Shown here piece by piece: positions 23,294 to 31,318 of a stretch of 64,000 nt of DNA; positions within the stretch are counted from its first letter, which is position 1; the number at the start of each line of letters is the position of its first letter. Source of the DNA: a virus; IMG/VR virus record IMGVR_UViG_3300027754_000003, positions 1 through 64,000 of that record; one strand, given 5' to 3'. A program made the position numbers and the translations under genes. The notes beneath the pieces are model-generated. The model had not been told where the DNA came from. It was given only the letters and a program-made list of their open reading frames with translations, and did not search any database.

Positions 23294-25422
23294 TACAAAC
23301 CTACCTTTGCAAAGAACTCAACACCTGTTCCAGAAACGGGTGCTCCAGCACCTGTAGTTTGACGGTAGTCACCATTTCTCCAAGCCCTAAACCATTCTGA
23401 TTGACCAGTTGTGTTTGATTGAGGTACAGGTGCAGGAGAACCTGCTTCAAATGTTTGTTTTAAGTTATGCCAATCATAAAAGTAGATACTTTGGTTTGGG
23501 TATGTGTCATCTATAATTCTCCAACGAATACCTAGTTCTACTGTAAATTTGTCTTCTTTAAATGGTTTAAAAAGTTCATTAGTAATTAGTTTTTCTCTTC
23601 CATCTAATTTGAATTCCCATTCAGTTAATTCCGCTTTTTGGTTTAGATACGTGTTAGACGCACCTGCTTTATTTGTATGCATAATGTCGCCGTTACCAAA
23701 ATGTATTTCAGCAGTTGCTTCTGTGTTCTGTGCAGTAAATACCCACGGTTTAGTTGCTGTTCCATATAATGAAAAATCAGTACCTGGGTTTTGGTTAGGT
23801 GGAGCACCTTGTACATATTTAGTTGCACCATTGTATGAGTCAGTAACATTTGCTACATATGTTTTTCTTGGTATTGGCGAACCATCTGCTTTAACTAAAT
23901 ATGAATCCCAGTATATTTTTAATACACCATCCCAGTAAATAGTAAAGTTTTTACCTTGTTTTTTCCACTTGTTAAGCCAGTCTTCCCCGTTTGCTCCAAT
24001 TCTTGTTTCTTCACCAATTGCAAATGACACAGTGTTTGTACTAAGTGTAAACAAGTTTTTAAAAGGAACACCAGGATTTTCTGGTGGTCCCTGAGTAGGA
24101 TATCTAGCGGCATGGTTTATTGAAAATGTTTTGTCAAAGAAATTCTTCTTTTGTAAATCTGAGTCGTATTCTTCATATATGGCAAATTCTGGGGCATTCG
24201 TTCCTGGGGTTGTTTTTCCTGGTACGTTATTTTGTCCAACATCAATGTTTGGTAGTTGTGTAAGGAAAGTATTTTGCTGGGCAAATCCCATGTACAAAGC
24301 CTGCATTTGAATCATCACTGTTGCTTGGGTTGGAATCATCTCCGCAGAGAACTTGTTAAAAGTTACTTGTATTGATTGGATAAATCCTTCAACCATCATC
24401 CATTTAGTAAACAGGACACGAACAGGTGTTGGGGTAAGAAATGCTTTGTTACCAATATTCATTGAGTATGCGTCATACCTATTCTGGTCAATCTTTTTAG
24501 CGTCTGCACCAGTTGGGTTAGTTGGTGAGTTAGGAGAATCTTGAGAAAAACCCCATTCTTTTCCTTTAGAATCTAATTGATTATTTTGAATTGCATTATA
24601 AATATCTTTTGCAAGACCTTGACCAATGACATCATCCAAAATTAAAATGTCAGCAAGCACACCAAGGTGGGCAACCCAGGATGGGTCATATGGTTTTGAG
24701 GGGTCAAGGTAGTCAACAGTATTTGCTATTGGTTCTTTAAAATTTGCTTTCTTTAATGCCCCACTTCCATCTATGTACCTTTGCGAAGCAACTTCCGCTT
24801 CTCGGTTAAACAACAGTTCAAAAGCAAAACCAGCCTTACCAGGAATTGGTTGGGCTAGTTGCGAAGGGTCTTGGTTAAAAAAGAACTGCATGTCGCTTTC
24901 AGCAGTGACCATTCTTGTAATATTGTCAGGGTTAAATTGAAAGTTACATTTCATATTTTTAATTGTTGAACCAACTGATTTATTTCCAGAACTTGCTTGG
25001 TTGTTTTCTTTTTGGTAAAACTCTGTAAGCCTGCGAATGTACCCTCGTTCTATTTTTACTGATTTGTTATTTACCGCATCACGGTTTGTATTTCCTGGGT
25101 ATATAAATTTAGGGTTTTGAATACCACCATTAGGAGTATTCCAAGATTTGTTTAAAGCACTATTAGGGTCGTAATCACTTGCACCTAGTAAGTCAGCGCC
25201 AGTACCAGCAGCAGCAACAGTGGTACCAAAACCACTTCTACCGTTAGCATCTGTTCGGTTACCATTTTGTTGTGCTTTTGCTTTTGCTTGGTTTTTAGTG
25301 TTTACTTTAATTATGGGCGTATTAACTTTTGCGTTTAAGGTTTGAAGCCGTGCTTGTGCTGCTTGCTTTTTTGCGTAAGCGTCAGCCAGTGCTTGTGCTT
25401 GTGGGCTATTTTCTCCAGCCAT
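23293..25422 (-). CDS. large virion structural protein of tail/baseplate, 709 aa
   Basis: The N-terminal 90 residues are Ala/Gln/Lys-rich and probably disordered. Residues about 150-400 contain NMKCNFQFNPDNITRMVTAE, typical of phage proteins that have an FNP motif near the tape measure, and the C-terminal half is beta-rich. I do not have a specific function; placement between tape measure and LysM protein indicates a hub or tail-tip role. Confidence 0.65.
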   Translation of the reverse strand: MAGENSPQAQALADAYAKKQAAQARLQTLNAKVNTPIIKVNTKNQAKAKAQQNGNRTDANGRSGFGTTVAAAGTGADLLGASDYDPNSALNKSWNTPNGGIQNPKFIYPGNTNRDAVNNKSVKIERGYIRRLTEFYQKENNQASSGNKSVGSTIKNMKCNFQFNPDNITRMVTAESDMQFFFNQDPSQLAQPIPGKAGFAFELLFNREAEVASQRYIDGSGALKKANFKEPIANTVDYLDPSKPYDPSWVAHLGVLADILILDDVIGQGLAKDIYNAIQNNQLDSKGKEWGFSQDSPNSPTNPTGADAKKIDQNRYDAYSMNIGNKAFLTPTPVRVLFTKWMMVEGFIQSIQVTFNKFSAEMIPTQATVMIQMQALYMGFAQQNTFLTQLPNIDVGQNNVPGKTTPGTNAPEFAIYEEYDSDLQKKNFFDKTFSINHAARYPTQGPPENPGVPFKNLFTLSTNTVSFAIGEETRIGANGEDWLNKWKKQGKNFTIYWDGVLKIYWDSYLVKADGSPIPRKTYVANVTDSYNGATKYVQGAPPNQNPGTDFSLYGTATKPWVFTAQNTEATAEIHFGNGDIMHTNKAGASNTYLNQKAELTEWEFKLDGREKLITNELFKPFKEDKFTVELGIRWRIIDDTYPNQSIYFYDWHNLKQTFEAGSPAPVPQSNTTGQSEWFRAWRNGDYRQTTGAGAPVSGTGVEFFAKVGL

Positions 25423-28175
25423 TACCTACTCCTCAATAGTTCTTTACGTAATTCTTTATCTAACATTTGAGCAATTTGGTTAGCCATTGCTCGTGCATCC
25501 TGAGTATTATTACCAGTAGAAGTAATATGGATAGTTGGTGAAATGGTTACATTTGTCCCACCACTAACAGTTACTTGTGTTCCTCCACGGGTAGGTGAAC
25601 TAAAGTGTGGGTCACCACGATTAAGACCGAGTTCTGTTACTGCTGCTTGAGCCTTTGGCATCCAATCTGCAGTGTCCGCCATCGGTCCACCTTTTTTATT
25701 CCAGGGTTGGTAGTTTCCACCGCCGAATTCTAAACGTGCGGCTTTAATATTTGTTGCTGGGTCCCAAAGTTCTTCATCGTTAGAGATACCATAACGCTTT
25801 CTACGTGCAGTACCCATAGGGTTTGTTTCAGTATCAAGCATATTCATTTGAAAAAGACCATATGATTTATCTGGTGGTTTTCCATTAAATGTTCCAGGAA
25901 TCCAATTAGATTCACGACCAGCAATAGCAAGCATGTTTACAAGGTCTTGTCCTTTAAACCCTCGCTTGTACATCATCTGAGCAATGGTTCGTGGGTCCAT
26001 TGCTTTCATGCTCCTAGTTCCCTTTGGCTGAGGTGAAGAAGAAACACTGCTTTGAGAAACACCGTTTACGCTTGGAGAAAGTGATGAACTGTCGGCTACA
26101 ACACCTGTCATTCCCATTGATGAGACTTGCTCTGACAATGACATACCCTGCATGTTTACATATGCCCCACCTTGCAAACCACCAGCAGCAACATACTTGT
26201 CACCAACGTAGTCAGGACCAACTCCATCCCAATTTCCTTTTGCGACACCAGCAGGTGTACCCCATTTTGAACCTTGTTTCTCGTATTCATATCGGGAGTT
26301 AGGAACATCGTTAGGTTGTACGTGCCATTTTTCTCCGTTTACATCTTTAAATGTCTTAAGACCAAATCGTTCTGCGTTAGCAACAACCCAATCAACATCT
26401 CCAACAAGGTCGGCAGCAAGTCCAATTTCGTGCATAGAACGACCTGGAGGTGCGGCTGGTGCGCCACTTACAAGTTTGTATTCTTTACCGTTCCAAGTAA
26501 CATCACCCTTTTGCCCATCGGTTACTTGTTTATAACGAGAGTTAAACAATTCTGTTTGTGTTTCTTGGCTACGAAAACCTTCACCAATACCTACGTTAGG
26601 GTTTTCTGCAAACATACGAAGCAATCGGTCTTTAAATGTTGAGTTAAGTTTTCCGAATGTAGGCACGTTCCCCAATGATGAAAGTGGGACACGGCTACCT
26701 TTCCCATAACCAACAGGAACACTTTTACCAGCAGATGCTGCTTGGTTACCAGCAGAACCTGGTTCAACAGCAGGGTCACCTCGGAACAGTGTTCCACCAA
26801 GCATGGTCATTGCCATACCTAGTGGTGCGGTAGCAGGGTTACTCATGGTCATAGCACCGATACCCATCAATGCTCCACCAATACCTTTTTCTACCAAACT
26901 TCCCTTTACATTCATGCGTTTACCAATTGCGCCAGAAAGTCCTTCTTCAAGTTTTCCTAATGCTTTGGTTACAGCCTGAGTGTTCTTTTCCATCTGGGCA
27001 AAGTTGTCAGCCTGTCGCTTATAAAAGTTTTCATCCCTTCCTTCTTTTGTTCGGGCAGTTTCCTCAGCCTGAGTAGCAAAGTTATCTTCAATACCCATCA
27101 TCTTTCGTTGTGATTTTTTGGAAGGGTCGTACATTCCCTTTCCACCTTTTTTCTTATACTGCACATTTGATTCTGCGTAGTCAAGAACGAGGTCAACCAT
27201 GTCTTCAGGAACACCCGATGCTAGCAAGCGAGCACGAGTAGCAGAACCTTGTTGGCGAGCACCAGTCAACATTTTTTCATTAGTAAGACCCGTACGTTGT
27301 GTAATGTCTCTAACTACTTGGTCCATTGAGCGTTGTTTACCACCAGCACCGTACAAACCAGTACCAAGCATCATGGTCATACGGTTGTTTACTTGGGCAG
27401 AACCAAGAGTTTGTGCCATCCCTGCCATGTCTCCAGCACTAAGCGAGTACCCAGATACTGCACGAAGACCTGCCATACCTGCGGCATTTTTTTGTGCATT
27501 AATACCAGTACTTGCTTGTAATGCAAGAAGTGTGTTAATTCCACCGTAACCTAAACGAGCACCCTGCAAAGGTTCACGCATCTGATGGTAATACTGGTTT
27601 TGACTAATACCCATGCGCTGTTGGTAAGATACACCCAACTTGTCAGCGCTAAGTGAACGGTCATAGTTAGAACTAATACGATTATCTAATGCAGCAATAG
27701 CAGCATTAACTACTTGTAGTGCTGTCGCACTCTTCAGACCTCTATTAGGAACAGGCGCATCACCATCACCACTAGGTCCCCTACCCATTGGTCCAAGGAT
27801 GTTGATAGTGTGTCCCTTAACACTTTGGATAGCATTGTTTGCTGAAGCATCATTAATAACAGAACCAGATAATGCAGGAACAGGATTGGCAGGGATAGCA
27901 CCAGCCGTTGGACTTCCACCACTACCGCCACCTAAAACACCAGGATTAATCTTAGAAATACCTTGAAGAAGTTTTAATGTTTTTTCTAACTTAGTGTTGA
28001 TGCTTGGTAATTGCTGATTAAGATATTGAAAGGAGGCTTTCATCTCCTTGACTCCAGCAGTCATCTTATTAAACTGCGTTGTATCTAATTTGAAGCGAGC
28101 ACGAACGTCAGCAGTAGCACTGCCTTTAGGTATTCCTTTACCGTTGCCTGAGAGGTCAGGTTCGTTCTTAGCCAT
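25422..28175 (-). CDS. tape measure protein with M15 peptidase and lysozyme-like domains
   Basis: The 917-residue protein has a helical N-terminus (32-75) and Gly/Ala-rich helices in the tape measure region (150-480). Residues about 505-620 form a VanY-type D,D-carboxypeptidase with GRSMHEIGLAADL (Ser580, His582, Asp589) and KWHV (His618). Residues about 725-850 form a lysozyme-like/transglycosylase domain with catalytic-type Glu755 in AGRESNW, then SYGLFQMN. The C-terminal part has a beta-rich TVSGGTNVTISP stretch. The wall-degrading domains suit a tail passing a thick Gram-positive wall. The next gene upstream is the frameshifted chaperone, as expected for a tape measure. Confidence 0.85.
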   Translation of the reverse strand: MAKNEPDLSGNGKGIPKGSATADVRARFKLDTTQFNKMTAGVKEMKASFQYLNQQLPSINTKLEKTLKLLQGISKINPGVLGGGSGGSPTAGAIPANPVPALSGSVINDASANNAIQSVKGHTINILGPMGRGPSGDGDAPVPNRGLKSATALQVVNAAIAALDNRISSNYDRSLSADKLGVSYQQRMGISQNQYYHQMREPLQGARLGYGGINTLLALQASTGINAQKNAAGMAGLRAVSGYSLSAGDMAGMAQTLGSAQVNNRMTMMLGTGLYGAGGKQRSMDQVVRDITQRTGLTNEKMLTGARQQGSATRARLLASGVPEDMVDLVLDYAESNVQYKKKGGKGMYDPSKKSQRKMMGIEDNFATQAEETARTKEGRDENFYKRQADNFAQMEKNTQAVTKALGKLEEGLSGAIGKRMNVKGSLVEKGIGGALMGIGAMTMSNPATAPLGMAMTMLGGTLFRGDPAVEPGSAGNQAASAGKSVPVGYGKGSRVPLSSLGNVPTFGKLNSTFKDRLLRMFAENPNVGIGEGFRSQETQTELFNSRYKQVTDGQKGDVTWNGKEYKLVSGAPAAPPGRSMHEIGLAADLVGDVDWVVANAERFGLKTFKDVNGEKWHVQPNDVPNSRYEYEKQGSKWGTPAGVAKGNWDGVGPDYVGDKYVAAGGLQGGAYVNMQGMSLSEQVSSMGMTGVVADSSSLSPSVNGVSQSSVSSSPQPKGTRSMKAMDPRTIAQMMYKRGFKGQDLVNMLAIAGRESNWIPGTFNGKPPDKSYGLFQMNMLDTETNPMGTARRKRYGISNDEELWDPATNIKAARLEFGGGNYQPWNKKGGPMADTADWMPKAQAAVTELGLNRGDPHFSSPTRGGTQVTVSGGTNVTISPTIHITSTGNNTQDARAMANQIAQMLDKELRKELLRSR

Positions 28176-28177
28176 GA

Positions 28178-28315
28178 TTACTCCTGTTTACGCCATTTGC
28201 TCATTGCTGACCAATACGCTCTTTGGCGTACTGTCATCGTCTTTATATCCCTGAGCGTGAAGCCCTTGTAAACCGTGGCAATCGTATCGTACTCCCAATA
28301 TAGTACTACTAAATC
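28178..28315 (-). CDS. frameshift extension of the tail assembly chaperone
   Basis: This open frame lacks any ATG, GTG or TTG before its final 20 codons, yet encodes a typical ordered peptide from DLVVLYWEYDTIATVYKGFT to MSKWRKQE, ending in TAA 2 bases before the tape measure start. It lies in the +1 frame relative to the gene upstream, whose stop is at 28314-28316. Tail chaperone genes in many phages make a short and a long product by ribosomal slippage at this exact place. The needed shift is +1 (or -2). A candidate slip zone is CTTTTATTCGGC before the stop; the exact site is not identified. Confidence 0.7.
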   Translation of the reverse strand, partial: DLVVLYWEYDTIATVYKGFTLRDIKTMTVRQRAYWSAMSKWRKQE

Positions 28316-29108
28316 AGCCGAATAAAAGTGCGGCCCAGTTGAGCATGATAGGGAATGGTTGCTCGCAATGGGCGCAGAGGGCTTCCACCTCCTTGATTTC
28401 TGGCCCTGGTTGTGCTTCCGATAACGCTTCCACTATTTTTGCTCGGTCTTTCATACCCAATTTTTTAGCCCATGCAATAGGGTCAGCAGGCTTTTTTCCT
28501 TCTTCCCAAACAGCACAACGGGCAATCAAAAATGTATTTTGCTCAGGAATGCTCCGTGCTTTCAAACCAACAAACTGACTATCACTTGCAGTAACAAGGT
28601 TGAATTGCATAACCGTGTTGTCTTTAAGAATTACCGCAAGTGGTTCCTTTGGGTCTTTTTCTGAAGTCTTTACAGGAAAATCATTTAAGTCAATCTGCAC
28701 ATCATTTGATTTAACACAATGTGGGCAAATGATTTGATACTCACGGAATATGCCGTAAGTAGCACGGACAGTTTCTAGAAATAAAGCATCTCGGTCACCA
28801 ATAATTAGATTGTCAACCAACGCTGGATTCTTTGTAATGTCTATGTTTCCAATAGAAACAACACTGCGCTTGAGCAAATGAGACATGTACTGTGCGTACA
28901 AAAGGTCATCATCAGACTCAAGCGCAGCAAGTGCTTCTTCGTCTTCCCCGTTTAGTTCTTTTACAATTGCGGTTGTTTCCCATTCACCTGTTTCTTGATT
29001 TTTTAGTCCACGAAACAATTCAATTTTACCGTTTGGAACTATTTCCATACGAGGTGTTGGGTCAGCGATTGCAGCGTTAAGCGACATTGCCTGAGAGTTG
29101 GTAGCCAT
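28314..29108 (-). CDS. tail assembly chaperone, T4 gp26-like with two CxxC pairs
   Basis: The 264-residue protein has an N-terminal beta part with NGKIELFRGLKNQ, an acidic stretch, a CPHC pair in the middle and CAHCEQPFPI near the C-terminus, resembling T4-like gp26 baseplate/tail chaperones that carry a Cys-pair finger. It sits between tube and tape measure genes, the usual position of gpG-type chaperones. Its 3' end continues into another open frame (see extension). ATG with AGGAG. Confidence 0.7.
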   Translation of the reverse strand: MATNSQAMSLNAAIADPTPRMEIVPNGKIELFRGLKNQETGEWETTAIVKELNGEDEEALAALESDDDLLYAQYMSHLLKRSVVSIGNIDITKNPALVDNLIIGDRDALFLETVRATYGIFREYQIICPHCVKSNDVQIDLNDFPVKTSEKDPKEPLAVILKDNTVMQFNLVTASDSQFVGLKARSIPEQNTFLIARCAVWEEGKKPADPIAWAKKLGMKDRAKIVEALSEAQPGPEIKEVEALCAHCEQPFPIMLNWAALLFG

Positions 29109-29140: not shown

Positions 29141-29761
29141 TTATTGACCGTCTAGAGCAGCAATTTCTTCGTCTTTCCATGCAATTTGGAAACCTTCGTG
29201 GTGAAGGTTCATTTGCTGAATCATAATTCCGTTGTCTCCAGCGTTCAAGTCACTTAGACCGTAAGCACCAGGCCAGCAGTTGTACAACTTAAACGCCAAC
29301 TTTACGTTACCTGCGTCTACTTTGGAATCTGCTGTGTTGTCATACTGGTATTGAACACCAGTTGCCGTATACGGGTGGTCATAAACTTTTACGATCACAT
29401 CACAACGGTAGTTAGTTTCATCACCTTTAGCACCTTGGTCAAATCCCTCAGTACCAGTTCCACCAACCCATGCATGCATGAACTTGGTCCACTTCCACAA
29501 TTGATCTTGCGATGCAAAAGCACCACGAGCAAATGACACTGCTGGGAAGTCTGATTGACCTACCATTTTATGTGGGTGAGTATTCATGCCACCTTCACGG
29601 TAAGCAATCAATTCGTTTTGAACTGAAAGTCCGCCAACTTGAGCAAAGCCAAGGTCACCAACACCAGTAAGGTAGTTGCCCAAGGCTGTACCAATCGGGG
29701 TAAAGCGTACTGTGAATTTAAAGTTACGTAGAGGGTCAGTCCTCTGTGTTCTTGTTGCCAT
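29141..29761 (-). CDS. tail tube protein, gp19-like
   Basis: The 206-residue product matches T4 gp19-type tubes: DPLRNFKFTVRFTP, AQVGGLSVQNELIAYREGG and HKMVGQSDFPAVSFARGAFA, with KLAFKLYNCWPGAYGLSDLN near the end. It polymerises as the inner tube of the contractile tail. It lies directly downstream of the sheath gene, the standard order. Confidence 0.93.
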   Translation of the reverse strand: MATRTQRTDPLRNFKFTVRFTPIGTALGNYLTGVGDLGFAQVGGLSVQNELIAYREGGMNTHPHKMVGQSDFPAVSFARGAFASQDQLWKWTKFMHAWVGGTGTEGFDQGAKGDETNYRCDVIVKVYDHPYTATGVQYQYDNTADSKVDAGNVKLAFKLYNCWPGAYGLSDLNAGDNGIMIQQMNLHHEGFQIAWKDEEIAALDGQ

Positions 29762-29770
29762 TGATATCTC

Positions 29771-31318
29771 CTAGATATTCGTAGTGACGGTGCTTCCACC
29801 AGTCCATTGACTGATGGTAATTACGATGAATTCGGCTGGTGACTGCAAAGCAACCCCAACCTCAATGTTTACTGTTCCGTTTTCAATATCTGATGTCGTG
29901 TTGTTTGTAGAGTTGCAACGGACAAAGAATGCTTCCGTTGAAGTACGACCTTTCAGCCCACCTGAAGCCCAGAAGGTATTCAAGAGTGAAGAAACTCGCA
30001 CAGTGAGGTCTGCCCACAAACGCTCATCGTTTGGTTCAAACAAAGCAGTCTGAGTACTTGTCTTGAGCAAATCCTTGAGGTAGTTCAACGAACGGCGAAC
30101 CGTGATGTATTTCTCAGAAGTGTTACGAGCCAAGGTACGAGCACCATTGATAATCACACCAACTCCAGGAACAATTGCAAACAAGTTCAATTGATTTTCC
30201 TTGTACAAAGTTCCTTGCTCCGCTTCTGTAAGGTTTGCAAGCAAACCATACACGTTGCGAAGGTCCAAACCATACCCAGCAGGTGCTTTTGAAACACCAC
30301 GAGATACTTCCGAACGAACCATTGCACCAACAACTGCACCACCTGCATAGGTGTTACGGATAGCAGCAGCGCCAGTCTTGGTTGGGTCAAACATTTTCAA
30401 TGCTGGACCATAGACTGTTGCATAGCCAGACTTAGTGTAAGGCTGGACTGCATCAGCAAGTCCTTGTTTAGTGGTTGCTGTAAGTGGGGTATCAACAATC
30501 AACAATGAGTTTCCACGAGTTGCCATTACAGAAATGGCATTGTTAACAATAGTTGATGAGGTTTGTCCAACAAGGTTAAACAACAACCCAGAAGTAATGG
30601 TTTCGTACTTGCTAAGAGCAGCAGCCCAGTCAGTTGAGTCAATTGCTCCAACACCTTCTGAACCACCACTGAATCCTACAGTTGAGGTGTAGTCATCAAC
30701 AGCAATGCCAGATACAGTAAGTTGAGTACCAGAGGCAACAGTTGCCACGCTTGCCGTGTTTATAAATGAGGAGTAGAGGTCAAGAACAGTTGCAACATAA
30801 CGGTAGTTAGCAGGGTCAGTAGATAGTTGGCTCCAACGCTCTACTTCTCCACCATCAAGTTTGACTACCAAGGTAAACAAAGAATTCTTAGTTGCTTTTG
30901 GCGCAGTGGTTGGAGCAGTGAGTGTTTCTGTGTCAAAGATGTAATCAACGGTGAGGTCATTACCCCATGAACCAGATGATTTTGTTTCCAAGAGAACTAA
31001 GTTTGCAAGGCTTCCACCTGTTGGGGTTGCAGTAAGTGCGCTTGTTGCTTTAGTTGCGCTAGTGTCAATTACACGAGTCACATAAGCATTCTGACCACCG
31101 TTTGCAAAGAAATGGTAAACAGCGTAACCAAGGTCGTAGGCAATATCCAAAGCACCAAACAAACTGGTGTATTGTGACCATGAAGTCACAAGTGTTGGTA
31201 CGGTTGGACCACGCTCTGCTGTACCAATAAAGGCAGCACCAGTTGGGCCATTCGTAGTTGTCAAGTTGGTCGCAAACGTACCTTCTTGTACGTAAACTCC
31301 TGGGCGTTCGTATGCCAT
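29771..31318 (-). CDS. tail sheath protein
   Basis: The 515-residue protein starts MAYERPGVYVQEGTFAT and has the sheath signature in its C-terminal part: GVGVIINGARTLARNTSEKY and ITVRRSLNYLKDLLKTST, with the final beta strand EVGVALQSPAEFIVITISQ that links subunits. It forms the contractile sheath around the tube. ATG start, AGGAG upstream. Confidence 0.95.
   Translation of the reverse strand: MAYERPGVYVQEGTFATNLTTTNGPTGAAFIGTAERGPTVPTLVTSWSQYTSLFGALDIAYDLGYAVYHFFANGGQNAYVTRVIDTSATKATSALTATPTGGSLANLVLLETKSSGSWGNDLTVDYIFDTETLTAPTTAPKATKNSLFTLVVKLDGGEVERWSQLSTDPANYRYVATVLDLYSSFINTASVATVASGTQLTVSGIAVDDYTSTVGFSGGSEGVGAIDSTDWAAALSKYETITSGLLFNLVGQTSSTIVNNAISVMATRGNSLLIVDTPLTATTKQGLADAVQPYTKSGYATVYGPALKMFDPTKTGAAAIRNTYAGGAVVGAMVRSEVSRGVSKAPAGYGLDLRNVYGLLANLTEAEQGTLYKENQLNLFAIVPGVGVIINGARTLARNTSEKYITVRRSLNYLKDLLKTSTQTALFEPNDERLWADLTVRVSSLLNTFWASGGLKGRTSTEAFFVRCNSTNNTTSDIENGTVNIEVGVALQSPAEFIVITISQWTGGSTVTTNI

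Follow-up and report, generated by a model that had tools for sequence, protein, structure and literature searches.

A probable +1 frameshift in the T4 gp26-type tail assembly chaperone gene of a contractile-tailed phage and its relatives

One gene of a contractile-tailed freshwater phage very probably encodes two tail assembly chaperones: a short form of 264 amino acids (TAC-N) and, beside it, a long form of 309 amino acids (TAC-NC) made by a +1 frameshift at the sequence CTT_T. Judged by sequence comparison, the same arrangement is shared by some hundred related phages and proviruses, most of them of actinobacterial type. What computation shows here is the gene order, the protein family, a +1 frame that is coding and conserved, and a conserved slip codon. 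The window, i.e., the whole stretch of DNA analysed, is 64,000 nucleotides of the virus record IMGVR_UViG_3300027754_000003, whose full length is 98,060 bases. The GC content of the window is 43%, and 49 of its 50 large open reading frames (ORFs) are on the minus strand.

The tail locus and the short chaperone

The minus-strand order is tail sheath, tail tube, chaperone gene, extension, and tape measure gene. The features are the following.

29771-31318, minus strand: tail sheath (phrog_23, E 3e-44; PF17482)
29141-29761, minus strand: tail tube (PF06841, E 1e-21)
28314-29108, minus strand: TAC-N, short tail assembly chaperone of T4 gp26 type, 264 aa (PF12322, phrog_150, predicted structure)
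28325-28328, minus strand: putative +1 slip site CTT_T, made up of the 0-frame Leu codon CTT (28328-28326) and the T that would be skipped (28325) (conservation)
28316-28314, minus strand: TGA stop of TAC-N
28314-28325, minus strand: two-frame stretch from slip site to 0-frame stop, LFG* in the 0 frame and YSAD in the +1 frame
28178-28324, minus strand: TAC-C, the extension read in the +1 frame: YSADLVVLYWEYDTIATVYKGFTLRDIKTMTVRQRAYWSAMSKWRKQE, 48 codons, then TAA (homologous extension in relatives; synonymous/nonsynonymous counts)
28235-28237, minus strand: first start codon (ATG) within the +1 frame (sequence)
28181-28185, minus strand: AGGAG, which probably serves the tape measure gene as ribosome binding site (sequence)
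25422-28175, minus strand: tape measure protein of 917 aa that contains a VanY and a lysozyme-like domain (position, size, Pfam matches)

TAC-N is a member of the T4 gp26/gp51 baseplate-hub family, by profile and by predicted fold. It matches PF12322 (T4_baseplate) in Pfam at E 6e-9, over the curated cut-off, and phrog_150 (baseplate hub) in PHROGs at E 2e-11; T4 gp26 and T4 gp51 both match phrog_150 as well. The structure predicted for TAC-N alone (mean pLDDT 87.6) finds T4-like baseplate hub proteins in BFVD with E-values down to 2e-34, including gp26 of Aeromonas phage 25 at 4e-6. Its matches in the PDB are weak, with the HK97 tail assembly chaperone 2ob9 at the top in probability (0.51, E 0.9). 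A first-pass annotation had described a tail chaperone in the gpG-gpGT arrangement. The chaperone stands, but its sequence family is T4 gp26/gp51 and not lambda gpG-like. A gpG-like assignment, considered first, gave way to the gp26-like one.

The gene lies between the tail tube and tape measure genes and has a conserved out-of-frame C-terminal extension near its 3' end, as is characteristic of a TAC pair. Only one PF12322 gene is present per record (13/13 records tested), and a separate gene for a long chaperone form was found in none of these 13. A single gene per record fits the need for a frameshift to produce the long form, with the proviso that the records may be fragments.

Two CxxC pairs are present in TAC-N, C128/C131 and C245/C248 (28716-28727 and 28365-28376, minus strand), and are largely kept across relatives. 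T4 gp26 also has CxxC pairs, and gp51 has one. The pairs in TAC-N suggest a putative zinc ribbon.

Two cell-wall enzymes are joined in the tape measure protein (25422-28175): its VanY-like carboxypeptidase domain and its lysozyme-like domain (SLT_3) each score above the Pfam cut-off. The AGGAG at 28181-28185 falls in the last codons of the chaperone extension, and conservation of the terminal KQE of the extension may be partly due to this overlapping ribosome binding site.

Coding in the +1 frame

The 0 frame of the chaperone ORF (29108-28314) ends with GCC GCA CTT TTA TTC GGC TGA. In the +1 frame, no stop interrupts the stretch from 28432, just past a TAG at 28435-28433, to a TAA at 28180-28178 that adjoins the tape measure ATG (28175). 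Across the TAC-N stop, this frame is open for 48 codons without a usable start. It offers no ATG, GTG, or TTG until the ATG at 28237-28235, which is 19 sense codons ahead of the stop; the first-pass annotation had correctly placed no start before about the last 20 codons. A protein begun at this ATG would lack the conserved first half of the extension. The -1 frame is closed by TAG TAG right past the junction. A -1 heptamer of the form XXXYYYZ was looked for at the junction and is absent, in agreement with the same annotation.

The open frame between the chaperone stop and the tape measure gene had been called peptide-like, and the substitution pattern confirms this. Pairwise codon differences past the stop were counted among the close relatives, here termed the window clade. 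Read in the +1 frame, 9176 differences are synonymous, 2874 are nonsynonymous, and none involves a stop. The same region yields 2170 synonymous, 12850 nonsynonymous, and 1125 stop-involving differences in the 0 frame, and 1358, 10367, and 2448, respectively, in the -1 frame. On this sequence evidence, the extension evolves as a protein read in the +1 frame. As the sole query against phages, the 45-aa extension returned only chance matches, and searches of Pfam, PHROGs, and NCBIfam gave nothing reliable for it.

Every distinct relative, 45 close and 68 distant (down to ~30% identity), has a homologous extension whose frame is exactly +1; these counts are over related sequences, with identities spanning ~30-96%, and are not independent trials. 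The chaperone query found 36 viral loci with 62-100% identity over the matched part, and all that are readable across the junction have the homologous +1 extension. Wider scans recovered window-clade loci down to 46% identity, 65 distinct distant viral loci, and genome loci in Saccharothrix, Actinomadura, Streptomyces, Nonomuraea, and a Bacillota MAG. The consensus of the window-clade extension is ..VVTYWEYDSIASVYKGFSLNDIKTMTVRQRxYWSAMSKWRK. In the Streptomyces phages BRock, LuckySocke, pSt2308, and GiJojo (~31-34% identity), the +1 extension is found directly at the junction (SDYSVTYSEYEQLVDAYKWSLTEIRKLTFRERKHWLDRY). A different shift is required in none of the relatives read across the junction.

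Position and direction of the shift

The first-pass annotation had proposed a comparison of nucleotide conservation near the junction, and this comparison reveals an invariant slip codon in each group. All 45 of the 45 distinct window-clade sequences have CTT as the Leu codon four before the stop, and at each of 12 other conserved Leu columns of the clade many codons are used. The Leu codon right after CTT is only ever TTA or CTA. In the distant group, TTT_C is present in the 0 frame of 68/68 distinct sequences, although TTT accounts for 21.5% of the Phe codons elsewhere in the gene. TTT_C is the sole in-frame copy in 59 of these genes. CTT_Y (45/45) and TTT_C (68/68) are the only invariant in-frame 4-mers.

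Both sites occupy the same place in the +1 frame, and in both the codon slipped onto is TTY. The distance from the slip codon to a conserved EY motif is equal in the Streptomyces and window sequences. Each site allows the P-site tRNA to re-pair one base forward, and its conservation is that of a programmed +1 frameshift site. CUU_U (the RF2 site) and UUU_Ynn are efficient bacterial +1 sites, the latter being especially +1-prone (PMC5009743). Since CTT_Y and TTT_C are invariant and are both known bacterial +1 sites, the direction of the shift is taken to be +1. The comparative evidence supports the earlier proposal that the chaperone is extended by a frameshift other than -1.

Upstream +1 stops in some relatives confine the shift to ~20-26 nt before the 0-frame stop. 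The stop itself falls within this interval, and TAC-N ends in TAA or TGA throughout the window clade, which would be compatible with a +1 shift at the stop codon (GGC_TGA) through slow termination, as in the tail genes of Listeria phage PSA, where the site adjoins a stop (PMC5009743). Such a shift is very unlikely here. The codon before the stop can be GGC, GGT, AGC, AGT, CTC, CTG, TTC, GAG, or others, most of which do not permit +1 re-pairing. In the distant group, the TTT of TTT_C is anywhere from the third to the ninth codon before the stop, i.e., the stop moves by several codons and TTT_C is kept. One relative (L124) has its stop one codon earlier and retains the +1 Asp. Because both the distance from TTT_C to the stop and the pre-stop codon vary, the stop does not appear to be the slip site.

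A -2 frameshift, of which phage Mu is an example, would lead into the same frame by identical arithmetic, and the offset had originally been given as +1 or -2. The +1 option is borne out by CTT_Y and TTT_C. The -2 option is not and is highly improbable, as no junction sequence allows -2 re-pairing in both clades and the invariant 4-mers are canonical +1 sites.

TAC-C could instead be a separate small gene begun inside the +1 frame, at ATG 28237 or by a coupled restart; an ATG is indeed present, and annotators of the Streptomyces phages began a small ORF at TTG or ATG. A hidden start of this kind, named in the first-pass annotation as a possible refutation, is very unlikely indeed. The extension is conserved from the junction itself, and in most of the window clade the usual first +1 start codon is 25-26 codons past the 0-frame stop, downstream of conserved sequence. 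First start codons are at unrelated places across relatives, and initiation at ATG 28237 would produce a peptide of just 19 aa. A sequencing or assembly error, of which a single-base frame difference is the commonest type, or a decayed gene can be dismissed, because relatives show the same frame relation whether they come from independent metagenomes, from Streptomyces phage isolates, or from bacterial genomes, and because both frames are under selection. Transcriptional slippage was also considered and is unlikely from the sequence, with T runs of just 3-4.

CTT_T is found in frame 39 times in the 50 large ORFs of the window, where CTT is the commonest Leu codon. The 4-mer alone is thus insufficient, and something else must make this site productive or the others harmless, so a stimulator is expected. 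A Shine-Dalgarno-like sequence upstream of the site was found in 0/38 window-clade sequences. The junction has no unusually stable RNA fold relative to shuffles (z = +1.06, window), and the 98 kb record has no phage tRNA. RF2 differs in having a stop at its slip site and, upstream, a Shine-Dalgarno-like stimulator; in the window clade the codon that follows CTT is TTA or CTA, and no Shine-Dalgarno-like element was seen. The slip of Leu-tRNA on CUU_U in prfB is the same as that proposed here (PMC5009743).

Proposed mechanism and comparison with known systems

The slippage and its efficiency, like the roles of the two chaperone forms, are inferred. The majority of ribosomes would terminate at the TGA and release the 264-aa TAC-N. 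A minority would slip +1 at CTT_T (28328-28325), where the Leu-tRNA on CUU would re-pair with UUU and one U would be skipped. Decoding would then continue through UAU UCG GCU GAU to generate the 309-aa TAC-NC. TAC-N would, by analogy with lambda gpG/gpGT, form a coat on the tape measure protein; tail-tube subunits would be recruited by the less abundant TAC-NC through TAC-C.

It is possible, though with somewhat more doubt than confidence, that a single ancestral +1 frameshift in a gp26-type chaperone has been kept across actinobacterial phages. Its slip codon would have switched between UUU_C, with a Phe-tRNA, and CUU_Y, with a Leu-tRNA, without leaving its one position in the +1 frame, and the frameshift may need no classical stimulator.

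In T4, gp26 and gp51 are two genes, whereas here a single gene has an out-of-frame extension. T4 gp26 is reportedly a TAC-N and gp51 a TAC-NC, and frameshifts are said to occur in several T4-like groups. The profile match of gp26 ends at 235/282, that of TAC-N ends at 219, and that of gp51 runs to 280. The TAC-N match stops near the gp26 end and gp51 runs on, which leaves room for TAC-C. A profile of the fused protein scores T4 gp51 at 12.6 bits versus 3.9 bits for shuffles, above all 998 shuffles. In profile-profile comparison, the N-domain alone is significant with a P of 2e-4, as is the fused alignment with 3e-5, but the C-domain alone is not (0.63). A correspondence between TAC-C and the gp51 tail is suggestive, a lead and not a result.

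Tail chaperone frameshifting is classic (Xu et al. 2004, cited in PMC9024508). A 2016 review excluded T4 from the frameshift chaperone rule (PMC5009743). T4-like chaperone genes were identified by Vladimirov, Gautam & Davidson 2022 (as cited in PMC12846349), and -1 sites with GTTTTT have been reported for Vandenendeviridae and Andersonviridae (PMC12846349). The lambda gpG/gpGT gene is likewise located before the tape measure gene and has a short and a long product, but it uses a -1 heptamer and not a +1 shift, and the sequence families are unrelated by the searches made.

Two +1 systems resemble the present one. The tail chaperone of the Bacillus myophage Moonbeam, an SPO1-like phage, has an unusual +1 frameshift (PMC4299906); the likeness is that of the published description of the +1 shift alone. 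A +1 shift at TTT-CGC was proposed for chaperones of HF1-group archaeal myoviruses (PMC7230728). HF1-group and HSTV-2 chaperones have the gene order and frame observed here, but in archaeal hosts. HSTV-2 (L235 15489-15515) and HF2 (L237 minus strand ~841-850) each carry TTT_CGC ahead of the stop that ends the first ORF, together with a +1 extension. In these two genomes, the CTT variant is absent and protein homology to the present chaperones was not detected.

What looks new is a +1 shift in a chaperone of gp26 type, along with the swap of CUU_Y for UUU_C at one position. A literature search, with subscription papers largely outside its reach, found no publication on the present phage group. 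The rule of short and long chaperones is extended to a large group of actinobacterial/freshwater phages with T4-type chaperones, and the T4 gp26/gp51 family is tied to the frameshift chaperones of other phages. The ~110 aligned natural sites, of two kinds, are a clean data set on +1 slip codon efficiency without an evident stimulator.

In this group, annotators split or missed the second part of the chaperone. The public records of BRock, LuckySocke, and GiJojo list the extension as a separate gene with differing, arbitrary starts (L038 3779-3961, L039 3833-3988, and L041 3626-3823, respectively), and that of pSt2308 has no gene annotated at the extension (L040 after 3594). None of the four annotates the joined frameshift product. 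Tail modules with the +1 chaperone are also found on genome contigs of Actinomadura, Streptomyces, and Nonomuraea (L122, L123, L124; also L126, L188). The Actinomadura and Nonomuraea modules are also represented in IMG/VR, by records 88 and 82 kb long, and are therefore probably proviruses.
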